A stretch of 39,029 nucleotides of DNA from Nevskia soli (lineage in GTDB: Bacteria > Pseudomonadota > Gammaproteobacteria > Nevskiales > Nevskiaceae): assembly GCA_026224805.1 (NCBI GenBank), contig JAMFRN010000217.1:1-39029 (forward strand), in the 5' to 3' direction. The first letter of the stretch is position 1; the number at the start of each line of letters is the position of its first letter. Positions 6,979 to 13,238 of this stretch are shown here, in pieces. Both the position numbers and the translations under genes were made by a program. Under the pieces are notes generated by a model. It made no database searches. It was not told where the DNA came from and was given only the letters and a program-made list of their open reading frames with translations.

Positions 6979-8625
6979 CTACTTGAGCCAGACCTCGACG
7001 CGCCGGTTGCGCTCGCGTCCGGCGGGGGTGTCGTTCGACGCCACCGGGATGGCGGAGCCGAAGCCGCGCACGTCGAGCACGTCGATGCCGCGAGAGCGCA
7101 GCGCTCCGGCGATGACGTCGGCGCGCGCCTGTGACAGTTGCAGGTTGGAATCGGCGGCGCCGACGCCGTCGGCGAAGCCGGCCAGCAGCAGGCTGCGGCC
7201 GCGCCCGGATTTGCCCATGAAGGCGACCAGGCGGCCAAGATCGCGCTGCGCCTTGGTGTCGGGGTTGCCGGTGCCGGACTCGAAGCGGAAGTCGAAGGAC
7301 AGGCGCTCGGCGCCGGCGACCATCTGGCTGTAGCCCGCGGGCCAGTTGGCGTCGAGGGCGACTTTTTCCGTGTACGGATTCTGCGAGATGAAGCCGATCT
7401 GCTTGACCACGTCCTGGCCGGCATCGGACAGGGCGAACTCGACGAAGTCGGCGGCGTCCCGCGACGGCGCCTTGCCCGGCAGGTACAGGTACAGGCGCCG
7501 CGACAGCGGATAGTCCTCGGTGCCCACGGTGAACTGCGTCGGCACGATCGGCGGATTGCCGGGGCCGGCGGAGATGCCCAGCACCTTGCTGCGCCGAACA
7601 TAGGGCAGGCCGATGAAGCCGATGGCGCCGGGGTCGGCGGCCACCGCGTCGGACAGCTCGGTGGAGGATTCGTAGCGGTGCGCCGAGCCGAGCAGCTTGA
7701 GGCTGAGCGGGTCGAGCACCAGGGCCTTGAAGGTGTCGAAGGTGCCGGACTTGTCGTCGCGGGCGTAGAGGGTGATCGGCCCGGCGCTGCCGCCGAGCGC
7801 GCTCCAGTCGGAGATGTCGCCGGAGAAGATCTTGCCGACCTGCTGGATGGTCAGCGTCTGCAGCGGGTTGGCGGAATTCACCACCACGGCGACGCCGTCC
7901 AGGCCCAGCACGTGCTCGGAGGAGGGCGAGGACAGGTCGCCGTCGAGCGCGGTGAGATCGGCGATCTCCTCTGGCTTGATGCGCCGCGAGGCCATGCCGA
8001 GGTCGGCGGCCTGCGCCGCGAGATCCTTAAACGCGGTGGCGGAGCCGTGCGCGAACACTTCGATCGCCGGGCGTGAACCTGCGGTTGCCGATTGCGATAC
8101 CACCTGGTGTTCGTCGGCCGCAAGTTCCTTGACGTCGGTGGCGCTGGCGCCCTTGGACCTGAGATAGGCGTCGGCCAGCGCCGGCCCCAGTTTCTCGCCG
8201 ATGGTGTTGGAGCCGTGCATGCGGAACAGCACCGCCACGGGGGTGCGGGCGGCGGTGGATTGCACCGGGGACGCATCGGGGGCGGGAGCACTGGGACGTC
8301 CGAGCAGGAGCACCAGGATCAGGCCGATAATGCCCAGTACCAGCCCTGCCACCAGGAAGGCCATCGGCACCTGCCGCTTCGGCTGCGCCTGGACGATGCG
8401 CGAGGCTTGCTGTTGCGCGCGCACGTCGGAAGCGAGTTTGCGCAGGGCCGCGTCGCCGCGGGTTTCCGCCTCGCTCAGGATCTGTTCCAGCCGTTGCGGA
8501 TTGCCCAGCAGGTCGCGCAGGGAATCCCTGGCGCCGAGTTGCCGCTCGGCCTGCAGCTTGAGCTGCCAGACCAGGTTGGAAAACTGGATATTTCCGGGTT
8601 TCCCCGAATCGTTTTTGTCCGACAT
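6979..8625 (-). CDS. Membrane-anchored PstS-like substrate-binding protein with C-terminal OmpA domain
   Basis: 548 residues. The N-terminal 86 residues look cytoplasmic and charged. One transmembrane helix follows (about 87-109, AFLVAGLVLGIIGLILVLLLG). A periplasmic PstS-like binding domain (about 130-400) has the family motif MHGSNTIGEKLGPALADAY and a later DDKSGTFDTF. The C-terminal OmpA domain (about 420-548) shows GFADGVG, the LSQARA helix and GRERNRRVEVWL, including the Asp and Arg that in this family contact diaminopimelate of peptidoglycan. The likely role is a phosphate- or anion-sensing/binding protein tied to the cell wall; ligand not proven. ATG 8625 is the only good start; the ribosome-binding site is weak. 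The upstream region carries a Pho-box-like site (8669-8686). Confidence 0.85.
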   Translation of the reverse strand: MSDKNDSGKPGNIQFSNLVWQLKLQAERQLGARDSLRDLLGNPQRLEQILSEAETRGDAALRKLASDVRAQQQASRIVQAQPKRQVPMAFLVAGLVLGIIGLILVLLLGRPSAPAPDASPVQSTAARTPVAVLFRMHGSNTIGEKLGPALADAYLRSKGASATDVKELAADEHQVVSQSATAGSRPAIEVFAHGSATAFKDLAAQAADLGMASRRIKPEEIADLTALDGDLSSPSSEHVLGLDGVAVVVNSANPLQTLTIQQVGKIFSGDISDWSALGGSAGPITLYARDDKSGTFDTFKALVLDPLSLKLLGSAHRYESSTELSDAVAADPGAIGFIGLPYVRRSKVLGISAGPGNPPIVPTQFTVGTEDYPLSRRLYLYLPGKAPSRDAADFVEFALSDAGQDVVKQIGFISQNPYTEKVALDANWPAGYSQMVAGAERLSFDFRFESGTGNPDTKAQRDLGRLVAFMGKSGRGRSLLLAGFADGVGAADSNLQLSQARADVIAGALRSRGIDVLDVRGFGSAIPVASNDTPAGRERNRRVEVWLK

Positions 8626-8668
8626 TGTTTGTTATGCCCCAATGATCAGGGTCGTTTAGCAAATGAAA

Positions 8669-8686
8669 ATGACGTTTCTGTGAAAG
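8669..8686 (-). promoter_or_regulatory. Pho-box-like 11-base direct repeat upstream of PstS/OmpA gene
   Basis: Read on the minus strand this is CTTTCAC-AGAA-ACGTCAT, two 7-base half-sites with a 4-base spacer. Compared with the Pho box consensus I know (CTGTCAT, 4 AT-rich bases, CTGTCAY), 13 of 18 positions agree, and both TCA cores are in register. It lies about 45-60 bases before the start codon. An identical 18-base copy sits at 10824-10841. Binding by PhoB is an inference. Confidence 0.4.
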
Positions 8687-8730
8687 CGGCCGCCGCAAGC
8701 CCCGTGCCGGCCAATTCCGTCGTGCAAAAG

Positions 8731-8764
8731 AATGGGGGCGGCTCCTGGCGGAGCCGCCCCCATT
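8731..8764 (-). terminator. Intrinsic terminator after the first propeller lipoprotein
   Basis: A 15-base perfect stem (8731-8745 with 8750-8764, core GGGGGCGGCTCC) with a 4-base loop, followed on the minus strand by CTTTTG. It lies 28 bases beyond the stop of the lipoprotein gene ending at 8793. A near-identical structure follows the upstream paralogue. Confidence 0.85.
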
Positions 8765-8792
8765 TTGAAGCGACTGCTGGTACCGCTTTACA

Positions 8793-10709
8793 TCAATGCG
8801 CGTTGATGTTGTTCGGCGTACCCGCCGGCAAGGTGCCGCCGCCGGCGATGCTGACGGTCAGCTCCGCGTTGCCGATCTGGCGGTAGTTGAGCAGGTTGTT
8901 GTTCGGCGTCTGCACGCCGTAGCCGGCGAAGGTCATGCTCAGGTGGGTGGGATCGACCTGGGTGGCGGTCGGTGCGTACAGGCGCTGGGCGAACCAGGTC
9001 TGGGTCGGGATGACGGGCGCGGTGGACGGAACCGTGACGCTGGCGCCGCCGGCCTGATTGGGGCCGGTGAAGCTGTTGATCGAGGCGATCGGGTTGGTGA
9101 TGCCGTTGTACACCGTCCAGTTCATCATGTCGGTGGACTCGGCATAGCCGATGTAATGGAACGCATCGGAATCGCCGTCCAGGCAGTTGCCGCCCGAGAA
9201 GTACAGGCCCCAGCGGGTCTGGTTGCCGTAGATGTCGATCAAGGTGCCGCGCGGGCTGATCCAGCGGGTCTGGGTGAAGTCCACCGTGGTCGGATCGTTC
9301 AGGCCTTTGACCACGCCCAGGTCGGTGAAGTTGACGCCGTCAGTGGTGGTGGCCAGGCGCACGTTGGAAATGTCGTGGTTGGTCTTGCCGCTGAACGGCG
9401 CCTTGTTGCACTGCTCGGCCGCCGACAGGGCGGTACTGCCGGTGTTGTCGCCGTTGAGGATCTTCTGTACGTACAGCACCGTGACCGGCGCGCCCGGCGT
9501 GGTGGCGGCGACCGCATTGGCGGCCGGCGTCGGGAACACCGCCATGATGCCGTCCGGATTGAGCAGTCCGTTGGTCTGCTGTACCACCACCGGATTGGTG
9601 GTGTTGCCCGCAACCGGGCTGAGCGCGGAGGCGATGGACTTGATGTCGTTGGTGCCGGGAACCGCGGTGGTCTTGTTGTTGGTGTTGGAGATCGGGAACT
9701 TGTTGCTGGCGGAGGTGAGGTTGATCACCCACAGCGGCGCGCCGTCGACGATTGCCGTGGCCGGCGTCACGCCGGGCAGGTTGCTGGTGTTGCGGTCCAG
9801 CATGTACAGGAACTGACCGGTCCCCGCGTTGCCCATGCCGGGCAGCTGGATGATGGCGGCATGGCCCCAGCCGTCGTCATCGCCGGAAGCGGGGTAGCCG
9901 ATTTTCGACGGGTATTCGCCGGCGACGGTGGCATTGGCGTTGGTACTTTGCAGCGTCGCCGGGCAGCCGGTGCTGGTCGAGGTGGCGGAGTAGCCGCCGC
10001 TGATCGGATTGGTCTGGTCCGGGTACAGTTCCAGCACGGTCTGCATGAAGTACCAGGTCTTGCCGTTGTCGTCCGATTCGGCGACGACCAGGGCTTCATC
10101 GAGATCCTTGGGGCGCCAGTCGAACAGGCCGATGATCGGCGCCTGGCCACCGTAGGCGTTGCCGGTGGGGGTTAGCGTGGTGTTGTACACCAGCGGGAAG
10201 TAGTACGGCGCCATGGTGACCGAGGGATCCTGCCCGGTTGCCGGCGTGGTGCCGAGCGGCGCGGCTGCCAAGGCGGCGAACTTGGCGCCGGTGACGTAGG
10301 ACACGCGCGTGGGCGCGCTGCCGCTGGAATAGGTGCAGAAGCCGTAAGTCGTATCCGGCACGTTGCCGCTGGTCAGGAACGGGTTGGTGGTGTTCTGGGT
10401 GTTGTTGGGATCGGCTGCCAGGTTGGTCAGGTTGAACGGTGTGGCGCCGTTGGCCGAGCCTTCGCCGATCGCCGTGCCCTGGTTGATGGTGACCGCGTTG
10501 ACGGTAGCGCCTGAGCCCAGCTTCGTGGTCAGGACCTGCGCGCCGGCGCCGCTGCCGGAGGAGGAAGAACTGCTCGAGCTGGAAGACGAGCCGCTGCTGG
10601 AGGAAGAGGAGGTCGTATCGGTGGTGTTGTAGTAATTCTTGGTGCAGGCGGAAATCAGGCTCAGTGACAATGACAGCAGGAGTGCTGCTGCCAGTTCATG
10701 ATTGGTCAT
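8793..10709 (-). CDS. Polyserine-linked lipoprotein with predicted beta-propeller domain (paralogue A)
   Basis: 638 residues from ATG 10709, preceded by AAGGGACG. The frame is open upstream, but the signal peptide fixes this start: MTNHELAAALLLSLSLSLISAC with lipobox ISAC and lipidated C22. A Ser/Gly linker (about 34-53) follows. The ectodomain contains an exact Asp-box, SDDNGKTW, as in sialidase-type beta-propellers, and two related blade motifs, TTDGVNFTD and ESTDMMNWT. The protein is therefore probably surface- or periplasm-exposed and may bind or cleave a polysaccharide; catalytic residues cannot be assigned. Polyserine linkers are known from secreted carbohydrate-active enzymes of gammaproteobacteria. 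It is a tandem paralogue of the next gene upstream. No named family is recognised with certainty. Confidence 0.85.
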   Translation of the reverse strand: MTNHELAAALLLSLSLSLISACTKNYYNTTDTTSSSSSSGSSSSSSSSSSSGSGAGAQVLTTKLGSGATVNAVTINQGTAIGEGSANGATPFNLTNLAADPNNTQNTTNPFLTSGNVPDTTYGFCTYSSGSAPTRVSYVTGAKFAALAAAPLGTTPATGQDPSVTMAPYYFPLVYNTTLTPTGNAYGGQAPIIGLFDWRPKDLDEALVVAESDDNGKTWYFMQTVLELYPDQTNPISGGYSATSTSTGCPATLQSTNANATVAGEYPSKIGYPASGDDDGWGHAAIIQLPGMGNAGTGQFLYMLDRNTSNLPGVTPATAIVDGAPLWVINLTSASNKFPISNTNNKTTAVPGTNDIKSIASALSPVAGNTTNPVVVQQTNGLLNPDGIMAVFPTPAANAVAATTPGAPVTVLYVQKILNGDNTGSTALSAAEQCNKAPFSGKTNHDISNVRLATTTDGVNFTDLGVVKGLNDPTTVDFTQTRWISPRGTLIDIYGNQTRWGLYFSGGNCLDGDSDAFHYIGYAESTDMMNWTVYNGITNPIASINSFTGPNQAGGASVTVPSTAPVIPTQTWFAQRLYAPTATQVDPTHLSMTFAGYGVQTPNNNLLNYRQIGNAELTVSIAGGGTLPAGTPNNINAH

Positions 10710-10823
10710 GACGTCCCTTGGTGTGGCGGTTGAAGAACTTCCCGAAGCGGGACAAATTAATGGCGGCGCATGACTATCATTGTTTTGTATGCCCCAATGA
10801 TCGGGCTCATTTAGCAAATCAAA

Positions 10824-10841
10824 ATGACGTTTCTGTGAAAG
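10824..10841 (-). promoter_or_regulatory. Second copy of the Pho-box-like site, upstream of paralogue A
   Basis: Identical over 18 bases to the site at 8669-8686, inside a duplicated segment of about 70 bases (10789-10859 against 8634-8704). It lies about 115-130 bases before the start codon of paralogue A. The spacing to the gene is longer than at the other copy, so only one of the two may be functional. Confidence 0.35.
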
Positions 10842-10881
10842 CGGTTGTCGCAAGGCCCGCGGCGGCGATTTCGCGGTGCAA

Positions 10882-10920
10882 AAGAAAGGGGGCGGCCCCT
10901 TACGGAGCCGCCCCCATTTT
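10882..10920 (-). terminator. Intrinsic terminator after paralogue B
   Basis: On the minus strand a GC stem (GGGGGCGGC with GCCGCCCCC) is followed by CTTTCTTTTG. It lies about 40 bases beyond the stop of the gene ending at 10960. It matches the terminator at 8731-8764 in sequence and position, so gene and terminator were duplicated together. Confidence 0.8.
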
Positions 10921-10959: not shown

Positions 10960-13101
10960 TCAATGCATATTGCTGTTGTTCGGCGTTCCCGCGGGCAGAG
11001 CCTTGCTGACCGTGAGCTTGACGTTACCAATCGTGCGGTAGTTCAGCAGATCGCCAGCGGGCTTCTGCGATCCGTAGCCCGCAAAGGTGACGTTGAGGTG
11101 GGTTGAATCGACCTGCACCGCCGTCGGGGCATACAGACGCTGCGCGAACCAGGCCTGCGTGGGAACGATCGGGGCGGTTGCCGGGATCGTGATCTGCGAG
11201 CCGGTGTGGGTGCTGGCGTTGTTGTCGTTGTACACGGTTTCGGTGTTGATCGAGGCGATCGGGTTGTTGACGCCGTTGTACACCGTCCAATTCATCATGT
11301 CGGTCGATTCGGCGTAGCCGATGAAATGGAAGGCGTCGGAGTCGCCGTCCAGGCAGTTGCCGCCGGAGAAGTACAGGCCCCAGCGGCTCTGGTCGCCGTT
11401 GATGTCGATCAGGGTGCCGCGCGGGCTGACCCAGCGGGTCTGGGTGTAATCCACGCTCTTCGGATCATTCAGGCCGCTGACGATGCCCTTGTCGGTGAAG
11501 TTGATGCCGTCGGTGGTGGTAGCCAGGCGCACATTGGAGATGTCGTGGTTGGTGGTGCCCGGCACGCTGGCCCCGGTCGGCGCCCCCGCGCACTGCTCGG
11601 CCACCGAATATGGCGTGCTGCCGGTGTTGTCGCCGCCGAGGATCTTTTGCACGTACAGTACGGAGACCGTCGTGCCCGCCGTGCCCACGGTCGCCGCCGG
11701 GGTCGGGAACACCGCCATAATGCCGTCCGGATTGAACAGGCCCTTGGTCTGCAGCACACGCACCGGGGATTTGGTGCCGGACGCAGCGGAATTGAGCGCC
11801 GTGCCGATGGACTTCAGATCGGTGCTGGCCTCGTCGCCGTAGTTGCCGATCGGGAACTTCTGGCTGGCCCAGGTCATGTCGACCACCCACAGCGGGGCAT
11901 TGTCGTTGATTGCCTGAGTGGTGGGGGTGGTGGCGCTGTTGAGGTTGAAGCTCGCGTTGTTGGTATTGCGGTCCAGCAGGTACAGGAACTGTCCGCCGGC
12001 AGTACCGCCGCCGCTGGGCGAGCCCTCAGTCGGAATCGCACCCGGGAGCTGGATGACCATGGCGTGGCCCCAGCCGTCGTCGTCGCCGGAATTCGGGAAG
12101 CCGACCGACGAGGGGTACTCGCTGGGCGAGGTGGAGTTGGTGTTGTCCGCGCTGGCTGTCGTACCGGGGCAGCCGGTGAAGCCCGGGTTGGGCGGAGAAC
12201 TGGTGGTGCCGCCGGTGGTGGTGCTGACGCCGGCGCTATAGGTCGGATTGGTTTCATCCGGATACAGCTCCAGCACCGTCTGCATGTAGTACCAGGTCTG
12301 GCCGTTGTCGTCCGATTCCGCGGCCACCAGAGCCTCATCGTTGTCCTTGGGGCGCCAGTCGAACAGTCCGACGATCGGCTTGGAGCCGGTGGCTGCGCCC
12401 GGCGCATGGGCGGAAGTGGTGATGGGCGAGGTGTACACCATCGGGAAGTAGAAGGGCGCCATCGCCACCGAGGGATCGCCGCCAGCCTGGCCCGCGGGAA
12501 CCGTGTTGGCGTTCGTCCCGCCGACGAGAGACGTCACGCGCACCGGGGAGCTGCCGTGGTAGTCGCAGAAGCCAAAGGAATGATCCGGCACGGTGCCCTT
12601 GGAGCTGTACGTCGTGTACAGGTACGGGGTGGTGAAGTTGCTGGTCGTGATCGTGTCGCTGTTGTTCGTATCGGTATACGGGGTGCTGTTGAAGGTGTAA
12701 GCCTTCAGCTTGTCCAGGGTGAACGGGGTGTTGCCGGAATTCTTGCCGATGCCCACGCCCACGTTGATGGTGGACTTGGCGGGCACGACGCCGGAATCCA
12801 GGGTGGTGACCAGCGCCTGGGCGCCCGCGCCGCTGCTGCTCGAGGAGCTGCTGCTCGAGCCGCTGCTGGAAGAAGAGGAGCTGGAGCTGCTGCTGCCGGA
12901 GCTCGATGAGCTGCTGGAGGAGGAGGAGCTGCCGGAGCTGGAGGAACTGGAACTGCCGCTGCTGCTCGAGCTGGAAGACGAGCCGCTGCTGGAAGAAGAG
13001 GAGGTGGTATCGGTGGTGTTGTAATAGTTCTTGGTACAGGCGGAAATCAGGCTCAGTGACAATGACGATACGAGTACTGCAGCCAATTTATGGTTGGTCA
13101 T
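10960..13101 (-). CDS. Polyserine-linked lipoprotein with predicted beta-propeller domain (paralogue B)
   Basis: 713 residues from ATG 13101. Like its downstream neighbour it opens with MTNHKLAAVLVSSLSLSL and lipobox ISAC (C22). Next comes a much longer Ser/Gly linker (about 34-92) of six serine runs of 6-11 residues, each ended by a glycine. The ectodomain has the Asp-box SDDNGQTW, the blade motif TTDGINFTD, and the same ESTDMMNWT segment, and aligns along its whole length with paralogue A. It is probably an outer-membrane or periplasmic polysaccharide-binding or -cleaving protein; activity unknown. The 5' leader (13102-13165) is also conserved between the two genes. An 11-base periodic repeat lies about 100-135 bases upstream. 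Confidence 0.85.
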   Translation of the reverse strand: MTNHKLAAVLVSSLSLSLISACTKNYYNTTDTTSSSSSSGSSSSSSSSGSSSSSSSGSSSSSSSSSSSGSSSSSSSSSSSGSSSSSSSSSGAGAQALVTTLDSGVVPAKSTINVGVGIGKNSGNTPFTLDKLKAYTFNSTPYTDTNNSDTITTSNFTTPYLYTTYSSKGTVPDHSFGFCDYHGSSPVRVTSLVGGTNANTVPAGQAGGDPSVAMAPFYFPMVYTSPITTSAHAPGAATGSKPIVGLFDWRPKDNDEALVAAESDDNGQTWYYMQTVLELYPDETNPTYSAGVSTTTGGTTSSPPNPGFTGCPGTTASADNTNSTSPSEYPSSVGFPNSGDDDGWGHAMVIQLPGAIPTEGSPSGGGTAGGQFLYLLDRNTNNASFNLNSATTPTTQAINDNAPLWVVDMTWASQKFPIGNYGDEASTDLKSIGTALNSAASGTKSPVRVLQTKGLFNPDGIMAVFPTPAATVGTAGTTVSVLYVQKILGGDNTGSTPYSVAEQCAGAPTGASVPGTTNHDISNVRLATTTDGINFTDKGIVSGLNDPKSVDYTQTRWVSPRGTLIDINGDQSRWGLYFSGGNCLDGDSDAFHFIGYAESTDMMNWTVYNGVNNPIASINTETVYNDNNASTHTGSQITIPATAPIVPTQAWFAQRLYAPTAVQVDSTHLNVTFAGYGSQKPAGDLLNYRTIGNVKLTVSKALPAGTPNNSNMH

Positions 13102-13198
13102 GACGTCCCTTTGTGCGGCGGTTGAAGAATTTCCCAAAGGAGGGCAAGTTAATGAGGCCGTATGACTGTCCGGTTACGAAAAGCGCCTATTGCCTCTC

Positions 13199-13238
13199 GG
13201 TAATGATTCGGTGATATTCCGGTAATGTTTTGGCGGGA
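13199..13238 (-). promoter_or_regulatory. Three to four 11-base direct repeats, likely response-regulator operator
   Basis: Read on the plus strand: GGTAATG-ATTC-GGTGATA-TTCC-GGTAATG-TTTT-GGCGGGA, that is 7-base half-sites every 11 bases. On the minus strand the unit is CATTACC / TATCACC. Tandem half-sites with 11-base spacing are typical of OmpR/PhoB-family activators. The array is 98-137 bases before the start of paralogue B and 125 bases before marC on the other strand. The former position suits activation better. The regulator is unknown. Confidence 0.5.

Follow-up and report, generated by a model that had tools for sequence, protein, structure and literature searches.

Psp3 of Pseudomonas combines a phosphate-binding-protein domain with an OmpA domain, two features shared with a gene product of the locus studied here, and under Pi stress P. 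stutzeri DSM4166 secreted it, while the two other strains studied did not (PMC5082522). For PP_3818, a similar protein, PMC9358898 gives a scavenging function as being without evidence. The corresponding gene of Nevskia soli, P0001, lies on the minus strand at positions 6979 to 8625 of the window, i.e. the whole stretch of 39,029 nucleotides that was analysed. Its 548-aa product has a PBP_like_2 domain at residues 188-401 (6.4e-33) followed by an OmpA domain at residues 448-541 (4.4e-11), the Psp3-type order, and its best matches among PDB sequences are solved phosphate-binding proteins. The PBP_like_2 domain is also shared with PstS of PstSCAB, from which P0001 differs by the presence of the OmpA domain. 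The link to Psp3 (P. stutzeri PSTAA_2217) is given by this architecture and by the similarity of P0001 to other homologues, often from Pseudomonas, which reaches 38-51% identity over the best segments. Read by eye, the N-terminus of P0001 consists of ~87 residues followed by a hydrophobic segment (residues ~88-108), whereas the Pseudomonas homologues mostly have a signal-peptide-like start; a Rheinheimera homologue resembles P0001, with its segment at residue 82. The protein is probably anchored in the inner membrane and, via its OmpA domain, attached to peptidoglycan.

The genome encodes PhoB (contig C216, 342 bits against a cut-off of 296). It also has, on contig C141, a pstS gene that lies together with a PstB-like fragment and carries a strong Pho box, CTGCAACAAAACTGTCAT, in its upstream region. 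The window's own contig gave no match to the PstB model.

Two paralogous genes, A2 (P0002, 8793 to 10709, 638 aa) and A1 (P0003, 10960 to 13101, ATG at 13101), are encoded on the same strand as P0001. Their products are identical at 420 of 616 aligned residues (68%) and have SLISAC-TKNYY at the N-terminus, where a signal peptide and a lipobox cysteine were recognised by eye, following the lipobox rule; in A2 the lipobox-like ISAC is accompanied by a Ser-rich stalk. The body of both lipoproteins is without significant match in Pfam, NCBIfam or PDB sequences, and the structure predicted for the A2 body from two sequences has a mean pLDDT of 27, too low to be of any use. P0002 had no match in plasmids, tblastn at 1e-4 found neither A gene in 52 loci of P0001 homologues, and Rfam at gathering thresholds gave no match between 6500 and 14000. 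Among the literature matches listed, none dealt with this duplication or with the A lipoproteins. The A1 stalk (12817-13005), built of SSSSSSG-type repeats, far exceeds the A2 stalk in length, which points to a gain or loss of repeats since the duplication. Among 85 genomes of the order, three others hold homologues of the A genes (G006, G017 and G012), and by eye the A-type C-terminal body is found on different stalks: Ser-rich in the window and in G006 (L203), repeated Ig-like-looking modules in the 1111-aa ORF of G017 (L204), and collagen-like GAT/GPA triplets in G012 (L205).

The two genes are the product of a ~2.2-kb tandem duplication, which is clear from the alignment of 8623-10777, lengthwise, with 10778 to ~13170. 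The left end of the first unit coincides with the P0001 start codon, and the right end of the second, which is approximate, falls inside a predicted Pho box at 13162-13179. The aligned parts comprise the P0001-side intergenic segment, a terminator-like hairpin, the gene body and the 5' leader. The hairpin 3' of A2 (8731 to 8764, minus strand) has 15-nt arms that are 100% complementary, and its duplicate 3' of A1 (10885-10918, minus strand) has arms that are 87% complementary.

An original prediction for this DNA had singled out an 18-base site occurring identically at 8669-8686 and 10824-10841 and matching the Pho box consensus at 13 of 18 positions. Identity and positions are confirmed, on the minus strand, i.e. 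in the direction of P0001, A2 and A1. The score of 13/18 was also reproduced, against the E. coli Pho box; four positions in the window reach it when both strands are read, two of them being the copies of the 18-mer. No third exact copy exists in the assembly, which comprises 267 contigs and 3.95 Mb and is 84% complete; another of its contigs has one similar site with 3 mismatches. The 18-mer is present twice because the tandem duplication copied gene A, the terminator and the P0001 promoter region together; the units align along their whole length, therefore the site was copied with gene A. This common origin had been overlooked.

The conservation of the site must be read in this frame. It had been placed in a 70-base segment with about ten differences, where its strict conservation against drifting flanks was taken to suggest function. 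The count of mismatches in this segment is 8, and the paralogous stretch extends far beyond 70 bases. The longest perfect run around the 18-mer is 24 nt. When the 14 mismatches of the surrounding 94 aligned columns are placed at random, P is 0.16 for such a run; for a run of 18 nt or more anywhere within the 70-nt segment (8 mismatches) it is 0.65. The run length is thus unremarkable, and how the site compares with its immediate flanks carries no weight as evidence. Over a longer range, the duplicates are identical at 144 of 166 intergenic positions (87%), above the 177 of 246 (72%) at fourfold-degenerate sites of the duplicated gene (P=4e-4). The box side of the intergenic region, at 83%, is less conserved than the terminator, at 90%. 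The higher intergenic identity is compatible with constraint or with local gene conversion.

A motif of 18 columns was fitted to the upstream sequences of pstS and phoB, each at most 260 bases long, from the window's genome and its relatives. Upstream regions of pstS were obtained from matches in 30 of 61 genomes, all used, and those of phoB from matches in 58 of 61, with 30 loci used. After exclusion of the genome's own pstS and phoB promoters, 58 sequences remained, of which 55 entered the motif and gave 47 distinct sites; these are not independent, since the training genomes are related. The training promoters have a -10 element TAnnCT 10 bases downstream of the box. Of 49 distinct sequences, 48 have its A and 47 its final T.

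Scored by the box alone or by box and -10 (extended score), the top three of ~78,000 window positions are 8669-8686, 10824-10841 and 13162-13179, one each upstream of P0001, A2 and A1. None of 300 column-permuted motifs placed all three top matches there, in either the box or the extended version; at least two fell there for 4/300 (box) and 18/300 (extended), and at least one for 42/300 and 79/300, respectively. Dinucleotide shuffling of each intergenic region separately gave P values (box/extended) of 0.004/0.0014 for P0001, 0.0058/0.025 for A2 and 0.017/0.0012 for A1, those of P0001 and A2 being mutually dependent. Of 8 million simulated positions, 9 scored as high as the P0001 site and 37 as high as the A2 site. 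Motifs built from a single gene give a weaker picture: with the pstS-only motif the top three are A1, P0001 and a site unrelated to these genes, and the phoB-only motif ranks a plus-strand position at 13198, then A1, then P0001 (2.5 bits), A2 being absent from both top threes. That plus-strand site (13198-13231) lies upstream of a MarC gene, and shared intergenic control with A1 is possible. The E. coli-type pattern proved too blunt for a scan of the own genome, with 419 matches at up to 3 mismatches against 429 for the reversed control and hence no enrichment. A Pho-like site with 1 mismatch was observed at G000:C24:7399-7416 (L087, L132), just upstream of a PhoB-like response regulator gene (C24:6720-7376), on a contig that also has three PBP_like_2 matches.

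The three predicted boxes, all on the minus strand, differ in quality. Box 1 (CTTTCACAGAAACGTCAT, 8669-8686) lies 43 nt upstream of the P0001 start codon and consists of the 7-nt direct repeats CTTTCAC and ACGTCAT separated by the 4 nt AGAA, an 11-nt period. With 13.5 bits it ties with box 2, its copy at 10824-10841 upstream of A2, for the top box score in the window. A candidate -10, TAAACG (8653-8658), follows box 1 at 10 nt and scores 2.3, against 8.0 for the own pstS and 8.2 for the own phoB. Box 2 is followed by a weak candidate, TAAATG (10808-10813), which scores 0.0 and brings the extended score to 9.0. In both copies the spacing is right and the TA is present, and the final T is absent. 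Box 3 (TCGTAACCGGACAGTCAT, 13162-13179), upstream of A1, has, at 14.0, the highest extended score of all window positions, and its -10, TAACTT (13146-13151), is closer to that of the relatives than those of the two copies. This Pho-type promoter, which belongs to the first lipoprotein gene, had escaped the original prediction. At A2, a remnant of the A-type promoter is left at 10754-10775 on the minus strand, formed by the second half-site AGTCAT (10770-10775) and the -10 TAATTT (10754-10759), its first half-site having been lost at the duplication junction. The -10 of the remnant scores 6.0, its extended score being -6.5.

Homologous genes extend the comparison to other genomes. A motif scan of orthologous upstream regions, proposed along with the original prediction, gave a divided answer. 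Homologues of P0001 were available from 52 loci, 50 of them with an upstream region long enough to score, and the extended score of the own P0001 site (12.2) was reached or exceeded in 31 of the 50, against 10 of 361 control ORFs of the same loci; a score of at least 20 was found in 26/50 and 1/361, respectively. The effective number is lower and the matches are not independent, as they come mostly from Pseudomonas; a slightly wider search counted 24 distinct sites. Rheinheimera, Reinekea and Donghicola also contribute Pho-type promoters, and some matches are doubtful, such as an AT-rich one in L044. The promoter is missing upstream of 19 of the 50 homologues, among them all four from Xanthomonadaceae/Lysobacterales (L045, L065, L074, L082) and one (L049) that is missed due to the choice of start. 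In the 85 genomes of the order, the only P0001 orthologue at 1e-40 besides the window's own is that of G068 (53%), whose upstream region has no box (best score 3.3, extended -8.4). For the A genes, the G006 homologue has a strong Pho promoter (box 14.1, extended 19.3), its link to the gene being deduced from overlapping contig ends, as the gene is split over two contigs. The G017 homologue has a weak box (10.2, extended 3.6) without a -10, and no box was found upstream of that of G012. A1, A2 and G006 have a footprint in common, AGTCAT followed ten bases on by TAnnTT.

We favour, with a probability of roughly 0.7, the explanation that the 18-mer is a Pho box, i.e. a predicted PhoB site, in the promoter of the PstS-like/OmpA gene P0001, that it was duplicated together with gene A and that all three genes are Pho-regulated. 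When Pi runs short, PhoB~P would occupy both 7-nt direct repeats and bring RNA polymerase to the -10 located 10 nt downstream. It would most likely activate P0001 from 8669-8686 and A1 from 13162-13179. The duplication, running from the P0001 start codon to inside the A1 Pho box, copied gene A, the terminator and the P0001 promoter region. A2 thereby lost half of its A-type box and gained the P0001-type box of its neighbour upstream, and P0001, A2 and A1 would then all respond to PhoB. The assignment of a PhoB site to the PstS/OmpA and lipoprotein genes probably holds, though on other grounds than those first put forward: the clade motif, the presence of PhoB and pstS in the genome and the promoters of homologues speak for it, and the conservation argument falls away.

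The identity of the two 18-mers could also be a mere leftover of the duplication, both genes using other promoters. The duplication alone accounts for two copies, the perfect run is no longer than chance allows given the mismatches of its flanks, the -10 hexamers are poor and the G068 orthologue has no box. We consider this unlikely, as the sites are the best positions of the window for a PhoB motif trained elsewhere, Pho-type promoters are enriched upstream of P0001 homologues and intergenic identity exceeds that of fourfold sites. A milder version, in which the P0001 box is functional and the A2 copy a passenger, is a serious contender, if somewhat short of an even chance. A2 would then be driven by the A-type remnant or by read-through from A1. 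Box 2 has indeed the worst -10 and the lowest extended score of the three, the remnant keeps a TAATTT that scores 6.0, and neither single-gene motif ranks box 2 in its top three; however, a terminator-like hairpin stands between A1 and box 2, and the remnant as a whole scores below zero.

It is very improbable that the conserved segment binds another regulator through TTTCACAGAAA, a TTTC-ACA-GAAA inverted repeat, the likeness to Pho being coincidental. The inverted repeat is visible in the sequence, and likeness to the E. coli consensus is by itself weak, four window positions reaching the same 13/18. The direct repeats of period 11 and the 10-nt spacing to the -10 nevertheless fit PhoB, as does the third site, at A1, which is without this inverted repeat.

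If the Pho-box explanation holds, the junction halved the own Pho box of A2 and yet set that of P0001 upstream, so that A2 would have remained Pho-regulated, now from another promoter. Retention in a regulon by capture of a neighbouring promoter is a general mechanism long known, of which this would be a small and readable case. Tying P0001 and the lipoprotein pair to phosphate starvation would also suggest a role, open to testing, for proteins that no known family matches. The further idea that a narrowly distributed, uncharacterised family of Ser-stalk surface lipoproteins adds a new output to the Pho regulon, with A2 rescued by its neighbour's box, is put forward tentatively, and we regard it as rather doubtful.

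Compared with PhoB-dependent promoters, as presented in PMC4415409 and PMC10294691, the site has the same two 7-nt repeats 4 nt apart. It stands upstream of the gene of a phosphate-binding protein, with the fixed spacing to a candidate -10 that the pstS and phoB promoters of the relatives have. It differs in that the half-sites are degenerate (13/18 to the E. coli Pho box) and that the -10 is without its usual final T at both copies. The biology is that of an ordinary Pho regulon, a well-known control system, to which the locus is a modest addition and a new example; its twist is that the same junction which broke one Pho box brought in that of the neighbour.
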